Origin: Centipeda noxia ATCC 43541 | Lineage (GTDB): Bacteria > Bacillota > Negativicutes > Selenomonadales > Selenomonadaceae | Length of the DNA: 64,000 bases | Assembly (NCBI RefSeq): GCF_000160555.1 | Contig: NZ_GG749279.1 | Coordinates: 376,413-440,412 of the forward strand | Reading direction: 5' to 3' | Part shown: positions 2,158 through 64,000 of the stretch, in pieces | Position numbering within the stretch: position 1 is the stretch's first letter | How the letters are laid out: every line of letters starts with the position of its first letter | The notes under the pieces: model-generated | Told to the model about the DNA's origin: nothing | Database searches by the model: none | The model's input: only the letters and a program-made list of their open reading frames with translations | Position numbers and translations under genes: made by a program

Positions 2158-2424
2158 TTACTTACGCAGATTGAGCTTTGTGATGATTGCACGATACCGC
2201 TCAATATCCGTTTGATACAGATAGCTCAGAAGACGGCGGCGATGTCCAACCATCTTCAAAAGTCCGCGACGTGAATGATGATCTTTTTTATGTTCCTTCA
2301 AGTGCTCCGTAAGGTATTGAATGCGTGCCGTAAGAACAGCAATCTGAACCTCGGGAGACCCCGTATCGCCTTCATGAACCGCATGTTCTTTGATGATTTC
2401 CTGTTTCTTTTCCTGTGTGAGCAT
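2158..2424 (-). CDS. rpsO: 30S ribosomal protein S15
   Basis: 88 residues, the normal length for S15, which binds the central domain of 16S rRNA early in 30S assembly. The protein starts [14 protein letters not shown] and carries the typical segments [16 protein letters not shown] and [19 protein letters not shown], the latter making the rRNA contacts. An AAGGAGG site precedes the ATG. The gene is followed by a strong terminator and then pnp, as in most bacteria. S15 often represses its own translation by binding its leader; the leader here can form hairpins (see findings), but whether this happens is not shown by the sequence. Confidence 0.98.
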
Positions 2425-2508
2425 ATAGAATCCTCCTTATAAATCTCCACCATTGACCAAGAAAACGTCGGATTACTCGCAATCTGAGTCATGGTAACAT
2501 TGCGCTGT

Positions 2509-3468
2509 TCATATTACCATAGAAATATTTTCTTGTAAACGAAAACTTTCTTTCAAGCCCTTTATTGCCGCCTCCTTATCTTTTTTGATCTGAATAATCA
2601 GTTCATCTGCTGTCGAAAAACGCTGTTCATCGCGTATTTTGAAAAAGAAGGAAACGGTGATCTCAGAATCGTAAAGATCTCCTGAAAAGTCGATAATATG
2701 AACTTCTAAGCGGCGGTCATATCCGCCAAATGTCGGGTTGTTTCCGATGTTTGCAACACCATGGTAACTATGCTTTTTATGAACAACCATGACAGCATAA
2801 ACTCCGTTGGGCGGAGACTCATAGGATTCATGCAAAGATACATTTGCCGTTGGAAAGCCAAGAGTACGTCCCCTTTCCTGCCCGTGAATAACCGTACCGG
2901 TAACAGTAAATGGATACCCTAGATATGCATTGACATGCGACAAATCGCCTTGAGCAAGCAGTGCACGAATCCTTGTACTGCTCACGGGTACCCCTCCATA
3001 CAAAACAGGCGGACACACAATTAGATGAAATCCATACCTTCCGGATTGCTCCTTTAGGAGATTTGGATTTCCTCTTCCACCTCGCCCAAAGGTGTAGTTT
3101 TCTCCCACGACAATATACTTTGGTGCAAAATATTGCTGAAGCAGATGAATAAATCCATTCGCTGTTGTTTCAGCAAAAGATGAGGTAAATGCTATTTCAA
3201 CCAAAGCATCCACACCTAAGTTTTTCAATATACGAAGACGAACTGATTGGCAGCCAATGCGATGGGGTGCCCCTTCTGGTACAATAACAGCACGCGGGTG
3301 ATTTGCAAACGAAAAAACAAGCGCAGTCCCCTTTATTTCCTGCGCTTTCTTCACAGCTGTACGAATGACCTCCTGATGTCCTATATGAAGGCCATCAAAC
3401 ATACCAAGTGCGATAACAATATTTTCATATTTTGACGAGAAATAAGTGAGTTGAGTATATTTTTCCAT
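2509..3468 (-). CDS. ribF: Bifunctional riboflavin kinase / FAD synthetase
   Basis: 319 residues. Makes FMN and FAD from riboflavin and ATP. The N-terminal FAD synthetase half has the nucleotidyltransferase motif GMFDGLHIGHQ at about residues 22-32 (HIGH-type) and SSTRIRALLAQGD near 165. The C-terminal riboflavin kinase half starts near 185 and shows GRTLGFPTANV and GVYAV. The Shine-Dalgarno is poor: the nearest GAGGAG is about 14 bases from the ATG, so the exact start is less sure. It lies between murB and rpsO; with rpsO and pnp downstream this resembles the common ribF-rpsO-pnp neighbourhood. Confidence 0.95.
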   Translation of the reverse strand: MEKYTQLTYFSSKYENIVIALGMFDGLHIGHQEVIRTAVKKAQEIKGTALVFSFANHPRAVIVPEGAPHRIGCQSVRLRILKNLGVDALVEIAFTSSFAETTANGFIHLLQQYFAPKYIVVGENYTFGRGGRGNPNLLKEQSGRYGFHLIVCPPVLYGGVPVSSTRIRALLAQGDLSHVNAYLGYPFTVTGTVIHGQERGRTLGFPTANVSLHESYESPPNGVYAVMVVHKKHSYHGVANIGNNPTFGGYDRRLEVHIIDFSGDLYDSEITVSFFFKIRDEQRFSTADELIIQIKKDKEAAIKGLKESFRLQENISMVI

Positions 3469-45329: not shown

Positions 45330-46271
45330 TTATTTGCTGATAAGCTTTTTTGTATGAGCTACAATATGCTCTGAAGTAAGGCCAAATTGTTTCAAAAGCT
45401 CCGCAGCAGGTCCAGAGTGTCCGAACTCATCATTGACACCGATGCGGTGCACAGGAACTGGACAGTTCTCGGCAAGGACGGCGCAGACAGCTTCACCAAG
45501 ACCACCGATAATATTGTGTTCTTCGACTGTTACAATCTTTCCGCAATCCTCCGCTGCCTGAATAACAATATCCTTATCAAGCGGCTTTATCGTCGCCATA
45601 TTGATGACGCGGGCACGTATGCCCTCAGCAGCGAGACGTTCTCCGGCATCAATAGCCTCAGGAACAAGGATCCCTGTTGCAATAATTGCGACATCTTTTC
45701 CGTTTCGAAGCACTTCGCCTTTCCCCACAGCAAATGCGAAGGACTCGTCATGATACACCGGCGTTGCTGCCCGACCGAAACGGATGTACACGGGGCCCTC
45801 CATCTCGTACGCCGCACGCAGCATCTTACGTGCTTCCACATCATCCGACGGACACATAACGGTCATACCTGGGATCGTACGCATCAGAGCAAAATCCTCG
45901 CAGCACTGATGCGAGGCACCATCCTCCCCCACAGAAATGCCGCCGTGCGTCGCGCAGATCTTTACGTTCAGATGCGGGTAACCGATTGTATTGCGTATCT
46001 GCTCATAGGCTCGCCCCGCCACGAACATAGCAAAGGTGGAAACAAACGGAACAAGCCCCATTGTCGAGAGTCCGGCTCCGACACCGACCATATTTGATTC
46101 TGCAATACCGCAATTAAAATGCCGCTCCGGAAACGCCTTCTTGAACATTCCGCTCTTTGTGGCTCCTGCAAGATCCGCATCCAGCACAACAATATTCTCG
46201 TGTATTTTCCCAAGCTCTACAAGCCCGTTTCCATAGCTGTCACGCGTTGCAATCTTCTTTACGTCCGCCAT
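45330..46271 (-). CDS. Transketolase, C-terminal subunit
   Basis: 313 residues from the ATG at 46271, behind AGGGGTG. Carries the pyrimidine-binding half and C-terminal domain of transketolase, which moves two-carbon units between sugar phosphates in the non-oxidative pentose phosphate pathway. Segments include GKIHENIVVLDADLAGATKSG, FPERHFNCGIAESNMVGVGAGLS, ATHGGISVGEDGASHQ and the C-terminal EEHNIIGGLGEAV. The gene starts three bases after the stop of the N-terminal subunit gene. Split transketolases are common in Firmicutes and archaea. A second pathway role such as a DXS-like step is not supported. Confidence 0.92.
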   Translation of the reverse strand: MADVKKIATRDSYGNGLVELGKIHENIVVLDADLAGATKSGMFKKAFPERHFNCGIAESNMVGVGAGLSTMGLVPFVSTFAMFVAGRAYEQIRNTIGYPHLNVKICATHGGISVGEDGASHQCCEDFALMRTIPGMTVMCPSDDVEARKMLRAAYEMEGPVYIRFGRAATPVYHDESFAFAVGKGEVLRNGKDVAIIATGILVPEAIDAGERLAAEGIRARVINMATIKPLDKDIVIQAAEDCGKIVTVEEHNIIGGLGEAVCAVLAENCPVPVHRIGVNDEFGHSGPAAELLKQFGLTSEHIVAHTKKLISK

Positions 46272-60986: not shown

Positions 60987-62311
60987 CATTCCTCCTCCTT
61001 GCGCGCACGTACGATAAGACGAAGCGGCGTTCCCTCGAATCCGAAACTTTCACGCAGGCGATTTTCGAGAAAGCGCAGATACGAAAAATGCATCAATTCC
61101 GGATCATTCACAAAAATGACGAAGGTCGGCGGTATAATACTTACCTGCGTAACAAAAAGTATTTTGAGCTGCTTTCCTTTCTTTGTCGGCGGAGGATTGA
61201 CGGAAACCGCATCACGAATCAGTTCATTGAGCACACTTGTCTTGATGCGCATCGACTGCTGTTCCGCAACATATTTCACCAGTTCCGTCACACGTTCGAT
61301 GCGCTGCCCCGTAAGCGCCGAGGTATAGAGTATAGGTGCATATTGAAGAAATCCAAATTTATCACGAAGTTCATCGGTAAACCGGAGCGTAGACTTATCA
61401 TTCTTATCCGGAAAAATATCCCATTTATTTACAACAATAATGACACCCTTGCCAGATTCATGCACATAACCTGCAATCTTCGTATCCTGTTCCAAAATCC
61501 CTTCAGCTGCATTGATGACCATGAGTACCACGCCCGCACGATCAATCGCACGCAGGGAACGCATGACACTGTAACGCTCAACGGGCAGAGTGATCTTCCC
61601 CTTGCGGCGCATGCCGGCAGTATCAATGAGGAGATACTTCACCCCGTCGCGTGTGAAGTGTGTGTCAATGGCGTCGCGTGTCGTTCCGGGAACATCACTG
61701 ACGATGACGCGGTCTTCTCCCAGCAGACGATTTACCAGAGAGGATTTTCCGACATTCGGACGTCCAACTACGGCGATTGCGATCTCGTCCGATTCTGCAT
61801 CTGCATCTGTCGCCCTTGGGAATGCCGCAGCGACCATATCCAGAAGGTCACCAAGATTCATGGCATTCGACGCAGAAATTGGAATCGGATCGCCCAAGCC
61901 AAGTGCGTAAAAATCATAAATCAATGCCTCACGGTCAAAGCTATCAATCTTATTAACCGCAAGAATCACCGGCTTTTGGGTTCGGCGCAAAATGCGCGCA
62001 ACCTCCTCATCAGATGAGGTCAGCCCCGCACGTCCATCGACAAGAAAGAGGATGACATCTGCCTCCTCTATTGCAAGTTCTGCCTGACTGCGCATGGAAC
62101 GGAGAATATGATCGCTCTCATCAAATTCAATGCCGCCCGTATCAATCATGATAAACTCATGGTTCAGCCATTCCGCATCCATATAGATACGGTCACGCGT
62201 CACACCTGGCATATCGTCAACAATGGAGATACGCTTCTTGCCAATTTGGTTAAACAGCGTTGACTTCCCCACATTGGGGCGTCCAACTACTGCTACAATA
62301 GGCTTGCTCAT
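60986..62311 (-). CDS. der: Ribosome-biogenesis GTPase Der (EngA)
   Basis: 441 residues. Essential GTPase that assists 50S subunit maturation, with two GTPase domains in tandem: the first G1 loop is VVGRPNVGKSTLFN (about 8-21), the second VVGRPNVGKSSLVN near 185, and each has DTGG or DTAG, NKID or NKWD motifs after it. The C-terminal KH-like domain starts near 355 (TSVLNELIRDAV, PPTKKGKQLKILFVTQ). The ATG at 62311 has GAGGAG nine bases away and lies inside the 3' end of the DUF512 gene by 62 bases. Confidence 0.98.
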   Translation of the reverse strand: MSKPIVAVVGRPNVGKSTLFNQIGKKRISIVDDMPGVTRDRIYMDAEWLNHEFIMIDTGGIEFDESDHILRSMRSQAELAIEEADVILFLVDGRAGLTSSDEEVARILRRTQKPVILAVNKIDSFDREALIYDFYALGLGDPIPISASNAMNLGDLLDMVAAAFPRATDADAESDEIAIAVVGRPNVGKSSLVNRLLGEDRVIVSDVPGTTRDAIDTHFTRDGVKYLLIDTAGMRRKGKITLPVERYSVMRSLRAIDRAGVVLMVINAAEGILEQDTKIAGYVHESGKGVIIVVNKWDIFPDKNDKSTLRFTDELRDKFGFLQYAPILYTSALTGQRIERVTELVKYVAEQQSMRIKTSVLNELIRDAVSVNPPPTKKGKQLKILFVTQVSIIPPTFVIFVNDPELMHFSYLRFLENRLRESFGFEGTPLRLIVRARKEEE

Positions 62312-63737
62312 CGAACGCAGCTCCTCTCATAGTCCCTGTGAATGCATTTCCGGCTGCAGGTTTCGTATAACCGGCATTACTTTGCCATGTATATCCTCCG
62401 CTGGCGCGTTCGCGATGATAATGCTCCCAATCTGTAATCGCCTCATAATAGTCGGCCCCAGTCGCAACCGGCTCGATACGGACATCAGGAAAGCTGCGGC
62501 GCATATCATCCAGCGTGACATCATCCAAAAAGACATCCTCTCCTTCACGCAAAGAGGATGCCGGGATTAATATCCCCTCTATATTCTCATCCAGCATCTT
62601 CAATGAATGGATCATATCACGTCCCGTAAGAAGCCCCGATACATTGACAGTTGCCCCAAAATGACGGTTTTCAATGGGCAGGACATGTATGCTCTGTGCC
62701 TCCGGATCAATCTCCCGTGCCAGTCGCTCTATCACAGGCGCAACTGCTGTCCCGCTCACAACAGCGAGTGATGATGTCCGTCCTTCTTTCGCACTCGGGG
62801 TGCTCACACGCGCCCATTCTTCGATGAAATTGCGCGTTAAACCTATACCGTTGTCCAACTGCGGAAACCCATCATACATTTCAGCAGGAGGAACTTCACG
62901 TCCTGCGAGAAAATAAAACTCATCTCCCAAATAGATAAAAGTACGTCCCTCCTCTGCACGAATCTGATGCTGCCAGCGTTCGACCTCATCAATCACGCAC
63001 GCGGCCCCTTCACGATCGAACTGCACAAGAGGAAACGGATCACTGCGATGCTTGGTGAGCCCCACGGGAACGATCGCAAGGGACAGCGCATGCGGCCGGC
63101 GCGCTACAATATCACGAATCGTTCGTTCCAGCTCTTCCCCATCATTCAGTCCGTGGCAGAGTACTACCTGCGTATGGTAATCCGCTCCCGCTTCTTCCAG
63201 TTTTGTGAGTTGCCCAAGGATATCTGCCGCTCCTTTATATCGGAGCATTTCAGCACGCAGTACGGGATTCGTACACTGTACGGAAACGTAGAGCGGCGAC
63301 AGGTGAAAGCTTTGGATGCGTGAAAAATCCGCCGGTCCCATATTCGTCAGTGTTACAAAATTTCCATAGAGAAAGGAGAGCCGATAGTCGTCATCCTTGA
63401 CAGAGAGACTATGTCGCATATTCGGGGCAATCATATCGACAAAACAAAAGCAACAGTGATTCGCACATTCGCGAATCCCGTCAAAGACTGCGCGCTCAAA
63501 CTCTACGCCAAAATCCTCATCATAATCCTTATCAAATTCGATGAGTTCCTGTTCCCCGTTCGTATGCTCGACAAGGAGTTCGATTTCCTCGTCTGCCATC
63601 GCAAAACTAAAATCAATGATATCACGCAAGGGCATGTTGTTTACAGAGAGGATCTTATCCCCCGGCACAAGCTCCAATTCCTCGGCAATACTGTTCTCTA
63701 TAACACGCAATATAACGCCCGGATATAACTTCGCCAT
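62250..63737 (-). CDS. PDZ / radical-SAM DUF512 family protein
   Basis: 495 residues. N-terminal PDZ-like domain (about 1-70, with SIAEELELVPGDKILSVNN), then a radical SAM-type motif CANHCCFC near 88-96, LSFLYGNFVTLTN, and the DUF512 region from about 200 with VPVGLTKHR and YLGDEFYF. The last part has PASSLREGEDVFLDDVTLDDM and ends in a roughly 55-residue tail (after TDWEHYH) that looks unrelated to the family; its final 20 codons overlap der out of frame. The family function is unknown. It has an AAGGAGTGA site that is repeated in the upstream terminator (see findings). Confidence 0.88.
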   Translation of the reverse strand: MAKLYPGVILRVIENSIAEELELVPGDKILSVNNMPLRDIIDFSFAMADEEIELLVEHTNGEQELIEFDKDYDEDFGVEFERAVFDGIRECANHCCFCFVDMIAPNMRHSLSVKDDDYRLSFLYGNFVTLTNMGPADFSRIQSFHLSPLYVSVQCTNPVLRAEMLRYKGAADILGQLTKLEEAGADYHTQVVLCHGLNDGEELERTIRDIVARRPHALSLAIVPVGLTKHRSDPFPLVQFDREGAACVIDEVERWQHQIRAEEGRTFIYLGDEFYFLAGREVPPAEMYDGFPQLDNGIGLTRNFIEEWARVSTPSAKEGRTSSLAVVSGTAVAPVIERLAREIDPEAQSIHVLPIENRHFGATVNVSGLLTGRDMIHSLKMLDENIEGILIPASSLREGEDVFLDDVTLDDMRRSFPDVRIEPVATGADYYEAITDWEHYHRERASGGYTWQSNAGYTKPAAGNAFTGTMRGAAFDEQAYCSSSWTPQCGEVNAV

Positions 63738-63756
63738 ATGTCACTCCTTTCTCACG

Positions 63757-63784
63757 AAAAAGGAGTGACGTTGCATCACTCCTT
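63757..63784 (-). terminator. Terminator after the S1-domain gene
   Basis: Stem AAGGAGTGA/TCACTCCTT (63776-63784 with 63760-63768), seven-base loop, then a T run on the minus strand. The 3' arm can also pair with the DUF512 Shine-Dalgarno at 63741-63749. Confidence 0.85.
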
Positions 63785-63815
63785 CATTATCGTATGAAAT
63801 TATTCGCAATCCGAC

Positions 63816-64000
63816 TTACTTCAGCCAATCGAGATGCGCTTCGACCTGACCTTCCGTGTTCTCGCTTGCTTCTGCCTTTTCTGCCTGGCTCTCATCCACA
63901 TATTTCTTAACATCCGCAGCATCTGCATCGCGCTTTGCCTTGGTGATCGAAAGTGAAATACGCTTACGTTTTGTATCGATGCGGAGTACTTTAACCAGTA
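63816..64000 (-). CDS. S1 RNA-binding domain protein, C-terminal end only (rpsA-like)
   Basis: Only the last 61 codons are visible; the gene runs off the right edge. The sequence LVKVLRIDTKRKRISLSITK is the end of an S1 domain as in ribosomal protein S1, followed by a charged tail (Asp/Glu/Ala/Lys-rich) ending LDWLK. In Negativicutes S1 is often fused to the C-terminus of IspH, the last enzyme of isoprenoid precursor synthesis, but the visible part does not allow that to be tested. Confidence 0.75.
   Translation of the reverse strand, partial: LVKVLRIDTKRKRISLSITKAKRDADAADVKKYVDESQAEKAEASENTEGQVEAHLDWLK

Follow-up and report, generated by a model that had tools for sequence, protein, structure and literature searches.

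A probable intrinsic terminator between the S1 and DUF512 genes of Centipeda noxia, and its counterparts in other Negativicutes

The 64,000-nt window analyzed here (contig NZ_GG749279.1 of Centipeda noxia ATCC 43541, positions 376,413 to 440,412) carries a hairpin that is probably a Rho-independent-type terminator. It would close the transcript of the gene for ribosomal protein S1 and has probably long insulated an ispH-S1 block from a DUF512-der block, and the DUF512 ribosome site that competes for one of its arms probably does so by chance pairing. What had looked like a regulatory switch in the first-pass annotation would become a piece of genome history, in which a terminator-like hairpin stayed put as its neighbouring genes were exchanged. 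We regard the locus as ordinary, save for one mild puzzle, the conservation of the stem.

Layout of the locus

The features are listed in window coordinates, with the basis of each assignment.

63816-63998, minus strand: 3' end of the S1 gene within the window (stop codon TAA at 63818-63816; the whole 389-aa ORF is at 2229-3398 of region L066)
63774-63785, minus strand: 5' arm of the hairpin, GAAGGAGTGATG (sequence and fold)
63759-63770, minus strand: 3' arm of the hairpin, CGTCACTCCTTT, anti-Shine-Dalgarno-like (sequence, fold, duplex energies)
63757-63761, minus strand: five-T run TTTTT, overlapping the 3' arm in part (sequence)
63741-63750, minus strand: DUF512 ribosome-binding site AAAGGAGTGA, the "third arm" (sequence, pairing predictions)
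62250-63737, minus strand: DUF512 gene, whose product has PDZ, radical SAM-like and DUF512 domains; der comes next (ORF and domains)

Along the minus strand, the S1 stop codon is followed after 30-31 nt by GAAGGAGTGATG-CAA-CGTCACTCCTTT, the T run, AAAGGAGTGA and the DUF512 start codon (ATG, 63737-63735). We take the S1 gene to be S1, and the ORFs upstream of it in L066 to be ispH, guaA, recX and recA, by recognition rather than by family search. The stretch between the S1 stop codon and the hairpin (63786-63815) is ATAAYTTCATA-like and can be aligned in part, by eye, across the genus; at the other end of the DUF512 ORF, 62 bases (62250-62311) are shared with the start of the der ORF.

The first-pass annotation had placed a terminator 3' of S1, and the anatomy and the relatives of this terminator-type hairpin (GGAGTGATG-loop-CGTCACTCC, then five T) bear this out. 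The hairpin is stable, as judged from folding and stem pairing, and a T run (TTTTT, 63761-63757) stands at the stem's 3' foot, although this run is weaker, even poor, in some relatives (e.g., CCCTATTTACAG in Anaerovibrio). It shares with intrinsic terminators a GC-containing hairpin of 9-12 bp, a short loop, a T run and a position 30-31 nt past a stop codon. It departs from them in its stem, whose sequence persists from genus to genus and into some families; the sequences of two control terminators vary even inside the genus. From these features we infer that the hairpin terminates S1 transcription. It is not among the entries of a consensus terminator scan, a miss that we put down to a rule extending the stem into the T run. 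A DNA-binding palindrome or dif-like site is not favoured, as the spacer between half-sites ranges from 2 to 9 nt. A literature search found no paper title concerning this hairpin.

Conservation of the hairpin across relatives

A covariance model, built from 33 selected sequences (alignment A1), matched right after S1 in 94 of the 96 family genomes in which both places are known (106 genomes with a match, minus ten without a listed S1 place); "right after" denotes a model match that lies on the strand of the S1 match and between -30 and 250 nt downstream of it. Two family genomes, G116 and G121, have model matches away from S1. Across the class, 202 of 380 genomes gave a match at E up to 0.05. 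In 62 chosen genomes S1 was located as well (57 with an S1 match), and among these many of the non-family model matches lie away from S1 and may be due to chance.

Within alignment A1, 99.7% of stem cells are paired and four of the ten pairs have changed on both sides, counts that lean towards structure since the sequences were picked for carrying the motif and S1 ends without it were excluded (L004, L069 and L088 were added by hand; L040, L044, L070 and others were left out). The loop and flanks are variable. Paired changes in the stem, together with placement after S1 across the family, indicate an old hairpin. A strict stem pattern (GGAGTGRTG..CATCACTCC) matched 74 of the 189 family genomes, and its control matched no row; this pattern misses the window's own genus, in which the inner pairs are G-U variants. 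DUF512 itself was found in all 14 genus genomes, the window's own included, and in 179 of the 189 family genomes, and 34 loci were drawn from genome contigs.

Gene neighbourhood and promoters

The hairpin does not travel with one gene. It lies behind S1 with DUF512 elsewhere in 11 genomes (G003, G006 and G010 of the same genus; G127 and G130-G136 of another), a set of 12 from which G153 was removed for a contig break, and a MutS-like ORF comes after it in L071-L073. Families f8, f9 and f17 include ten genomes whose match, on the same strand as S1, comes some 3.2 kb after it; in the five of these regions read for ORFs, S1 is within a longer ORF (reading like an ispH-S1 fusion in L197), and more ORFs precede the hairpin, which is then followed by DUF512. 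The hairpin stands within about 65 nt of DUF512 in L203 (f16) and L216 (f22), one genome per family, where the model scored it on the opposite strand, as a palindrome permits. The one in L203 sits inside a far longer palindrome (TATAATATAGCAAGGAGTGATG...) at about 1900-1960. In all, there are five other families in which the hairpin precedes DUF512 away from S1, mostly with a SigH-type motif next. Since the hairpin thus remains where one operon ends and the promoter of the next begins, even as the flanking genes change, we favour an insulating terminator.

The E. coli S1 gene, rpsA, is autoregulated at its translation start. An S1 gene adjoins the element here too; the element differs in lying at the 3' end of S1, and it is not always attached to that gene, being some 3.2 kb off in the f8, f9 and f17 genomes and not beside S1 in several families.

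A SigH motif consisting of AGGA and GAAT, 17-18 nt apart, is described for Sporomusa sphaeroides in PMC12456013. The pattern AGGA-N17/18-GAAT occurs between hairpin and DUF512 in eight of nine loci of f8, f9 and f17 (L197-L201, L215, L029 and L030) and, by eye, in L216, none of them Selenomonadaceae; it is missing from this interval in L028 and L203. Within the genus, TTGTAA-N16-18-TATAAT is found shortly upstream of DUF512 in G006 and G010 (L002 and L005; repeats L037, L042 and L211), where DUF512 is apart from S1. At L002:1920-1948 and L005:1936-1964 the spacer is 17 nt and a TG stands ahead of the -10 box. The ten linked leaders all lack the exact N16-18 pattern, and so do G003 and G004 (L047, L048), which are unlinked. 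The promoter pattern of the unlinked genomes fits, but does not prove, a dependence of linked DUF512 on upstream transcription. With 22-28 nt from the hairpin to the first start codon of the operon that contains the GTPase gene der, read-through is the likely route of transcription. A promoter for DUF512 beside the hairpin in the window was rejected: the candidate at 63828-63799 is a weak 9/12 match and is, by eye, lost in L031.

Stem conservation relative to control terminators

By eye, the terminators after RNase J and the transketolase subunit, taken as controls, differ in sequence within the genus. The median longest string shared between 120-nt ends within the genus was 13 for S1, 8 for RNase J, 8 for the transketolase subunit and 7 for background; between the genus and other genera it was 10 (6-14) for S1 and 7 (5-10) for RNase J. 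Among the 27 S1 ends in this test, G005 was miscut, and in G007 the hairpin, about 200 nt away, falls outside the 120-nt piece; both lower the S1 figure. The stem appears to be conserved beyond these two control terminators and more than plain termination demands, a mild puzzle for the view that terminator sequences drift freely.

A conserved RNA element that does more than terminate (by protecting the 3' end, binding a protein or yielding a 3'-end-derived small RNA), with the third arm incidental, would explain the conserved stem, and we give this reading a small but appreciable probability. It draws on the longer shared string at S1 ends (13, against 8 and 8 for the controls and 7 for background), on the retention of the hairpin beside different genes in other families and on the poor T run of some relatives. 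It has to contend with a hairpin that follows no single gene and with a comparison to two control terminators only. Moreover, by eye, a recognisable copy is absent or replaced in 24 of 40 S1 3' ends. One large genus accounts for 14 of the 24, and G004, from the window's own genus, is another; the 40 ends were chosen partly for missing the strict pattern, so this count is no frequency estimate. The further variant, that the hairpin was kept over several Negativicutes families for such an extra job and was in this one oral species drawn into a competition damping DUF512-der translation in read-through RNA, seems to us improbable.

Competition between the hairpin and the ribosome site

The nine bases AAGGAGTGA had been reported on the minus strand at 63776-63784 and again at 63741-63749, with their complement between the copies at 63760-63768, and these places are exact; the complement reads TCACTCCTT on that strand. 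The window holds three matches to AAGGAGTGA, compared with a mean of 0.47 over 100 window shuffles, none of which reaches three. Three short arms alone are attributable to chance, since 5-mer three-arm patterns are rarer in the 2.05-Mb genome (16) than matches to a reversed control pattern (26). GGAGTGA-N3-16-TCACTCC occurs at one place in the genome (control 0). A genome-wide repeat is rejected, the element having a single place here and the strict pattern being single-copy in nearly every family genome that has it (G153 has two places, both at contig ends).

In the window, the 3' arm has two mutually exclusive partners. The fold of 63730-63830 (-29.7 kcal/mol; z = -3.53; 1/200 shuffles as good) has as its minimum the complement paired with the ribosome site over 13 bp. 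For a 66-nt piece the terminator is the minimum, at -20.3 kcal/mol vs. -19.3 kcal/mol with ribosome-site pairing forced. Predicted pairing of arm and leader over four read-through RNA lengths is 0.27, 0.93, 0.94 and 0.18, and in these models the balance of the two pairings is close and context-dependent.

The leader from hairpin to start codon measures 22-28 nt in the ten linked genus loci, and its ribosome site is able to pair with about six arm bases, G-U pairs counted. Hairpin and ribosome site are both present in the nine other linked genus genomes, where the site does not duplicate the arm and reads AAAGGAGGGG in seven, AAAGGGGGG in L031 and GAAGGAGGG in L036. With pairing forced, the terminator beats the ribosome-site hairpin in all ten linked loci, by 1.0 kcal/mol in the window and by 1.6-7.9 kcal/mol in the others; in L031, however, a different arm-leader pairing is the unforced minimum, at -15.1 against -14.7 for the terminator. 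The highest arm-leader pairing over the four lengths is 0.01 in L003, 0.04 in L004, 0.29 in L031, 0.11 in L033, 0.00 in L036, 0.49 in L040, 0.22 in L043, 0.00 in L044 and 0.37 in L045, and at the longest RNA length the pairing in L045 (0.30) exceeds that in the window (0.18). Beyond the genus, 24 chosen loci gave values of 0-0.07, computed for one RNA length and four bases per arm, as opposed to four lengths and seven bases in the genus. The contrast between the window and its relatives became weaker when the genus was rerun at four lengths. The models point to a difference of degree from the genus relatives, L031, L040 and L045 also being predicted to have some competition. Its predicted strength peaks in the window, drops to faint or nil in the other loci and varies with context. 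By the same predictions, competition in read-through RNA of this species is physically possible.

Part of this pairing may follow from the arm itself, whose sequence CACUCCUUU is close to the anti-Shine-Dalgarno sequence at the 16S 3' end. Any strong ribosome site can pair with a terminator arm that, by its CUCCUUU, resembles the anti-Shine-Dalgarno. For 55 window genes, whose ORFs and starts were picked by a script that favours strong ribosome sites, duplexes with the S1 arm have a median energy of -7.8 kcal/mol, compared with -4.4 to -5.3 kcal/mol for three other terminator arms. The DUF512 site ranks first of the 55 (-16.1 kcal/mol; next, -15.3 kcal/mol). The genus-typical DUF512 site gives -11.0 kcal/mol with the arm, vs. 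-11.1 kcal/mol for a perfect Shine-Dalgarno. Near 46271 on the minus strand, the 20 nt before the script-chosen start of a transketolase subunit pair with the S1 arm at -15.3 kcal/mol. Selection for an anti-Shine-Dalgarno mimic is not favoured, as relatives alter the 3' arm (ACTTCC in L102 and L103, ACTCTTT in Pelosinus) and their stems are still paired.

Under the insulating-terminator reading, the history of the locus could have been as follows. The genus leader would have shrunk to 22-28 nt, bringing the DUF512 ribosome site beside the hairpin, and in this species AAAGGAGTGA would have replaced the usual AAAGGAGGGG, extending a chance pairing to nine bases and more. As the RNA is made, the terminator would form first; partial read-through past it would supply DUF512-der transcripts, and in these the competing hairpin may somewhat damp translation in this species. 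Counting against this reading are the conservation of the stem, the poor T run of some relatives, the S1 ends that lack a copy, the first rank of the DUF512 site among 55 genes and the competition predicted in L031, L040 and L045.

A three-arm switch is unlikely at this locus. The first-pass annotation proposed that the complement alternates between two hairpins, with DUF512 expression set by S1 translation or by protein binding; the two exclusive partners of the 3' arm stand, and a working switch finds no support in the relatives, the comparison that the annotation itself had named as a test. In its full form we hold the proposal to be very improbable. The exact nine-base copies, the nearly equal energies of the two states in the window, a pairing of 0.93-0.94 at two of four RNA lengths and the strongest ribosome-site pairing with the arm among 55 genes all speak for it. 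Against it, the pairing is 0.27 and 0.18 at the other two lengths and is not kept in relatives (0-0.49 in the nine linked, 0-0.07 in the 24 outside the genus), 11 genomes have the hairpin after S1 although their DUF512 is elsewhere, and both states would lower expression. In an E. coli system treated in PMC4824070, termination was at its maximum beyond a distance of about 27-30 nt; the S1 stop codon is 30-31 nt from the stem, so the suggestion that ribosomes there tip the balance is unlikely to hold. An Rfam search of 63400-64000 at E up to 5 matched no known RNA family and found no sensor.

Leaders of the trp type are transcription attenuators with competing hairpins, and the present locus resembles them in having one segment with two exclusive partners, one pairing being terminator-like. 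The same likeness extends to pyrBI, named among attenuators in a passage of PMC4824070. The locus differs from both in that the alternative pairing hides the ribosome site, leaving neither state plainly ON, in that neither a leader peptide nor a ligand domain is seen, and in that the pairing is weak in relatives.

The other origin that had been offered, a recent duplication of the terminator arm that made the ribosome site, accounts for nine identical bases but is scarcely credible, as the nine linked relatives have the site at the same place, a few substitutions apart.

PMC11659888 treats DUF512 proteins that also carry PDZ and radical SAM domains, the three domains of the protein encoded downstream here; its abstract concerns structure and cobalamin binding, not gene regulation. 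DUF512 matches in many relatives stop near residue 459-474 of 495.
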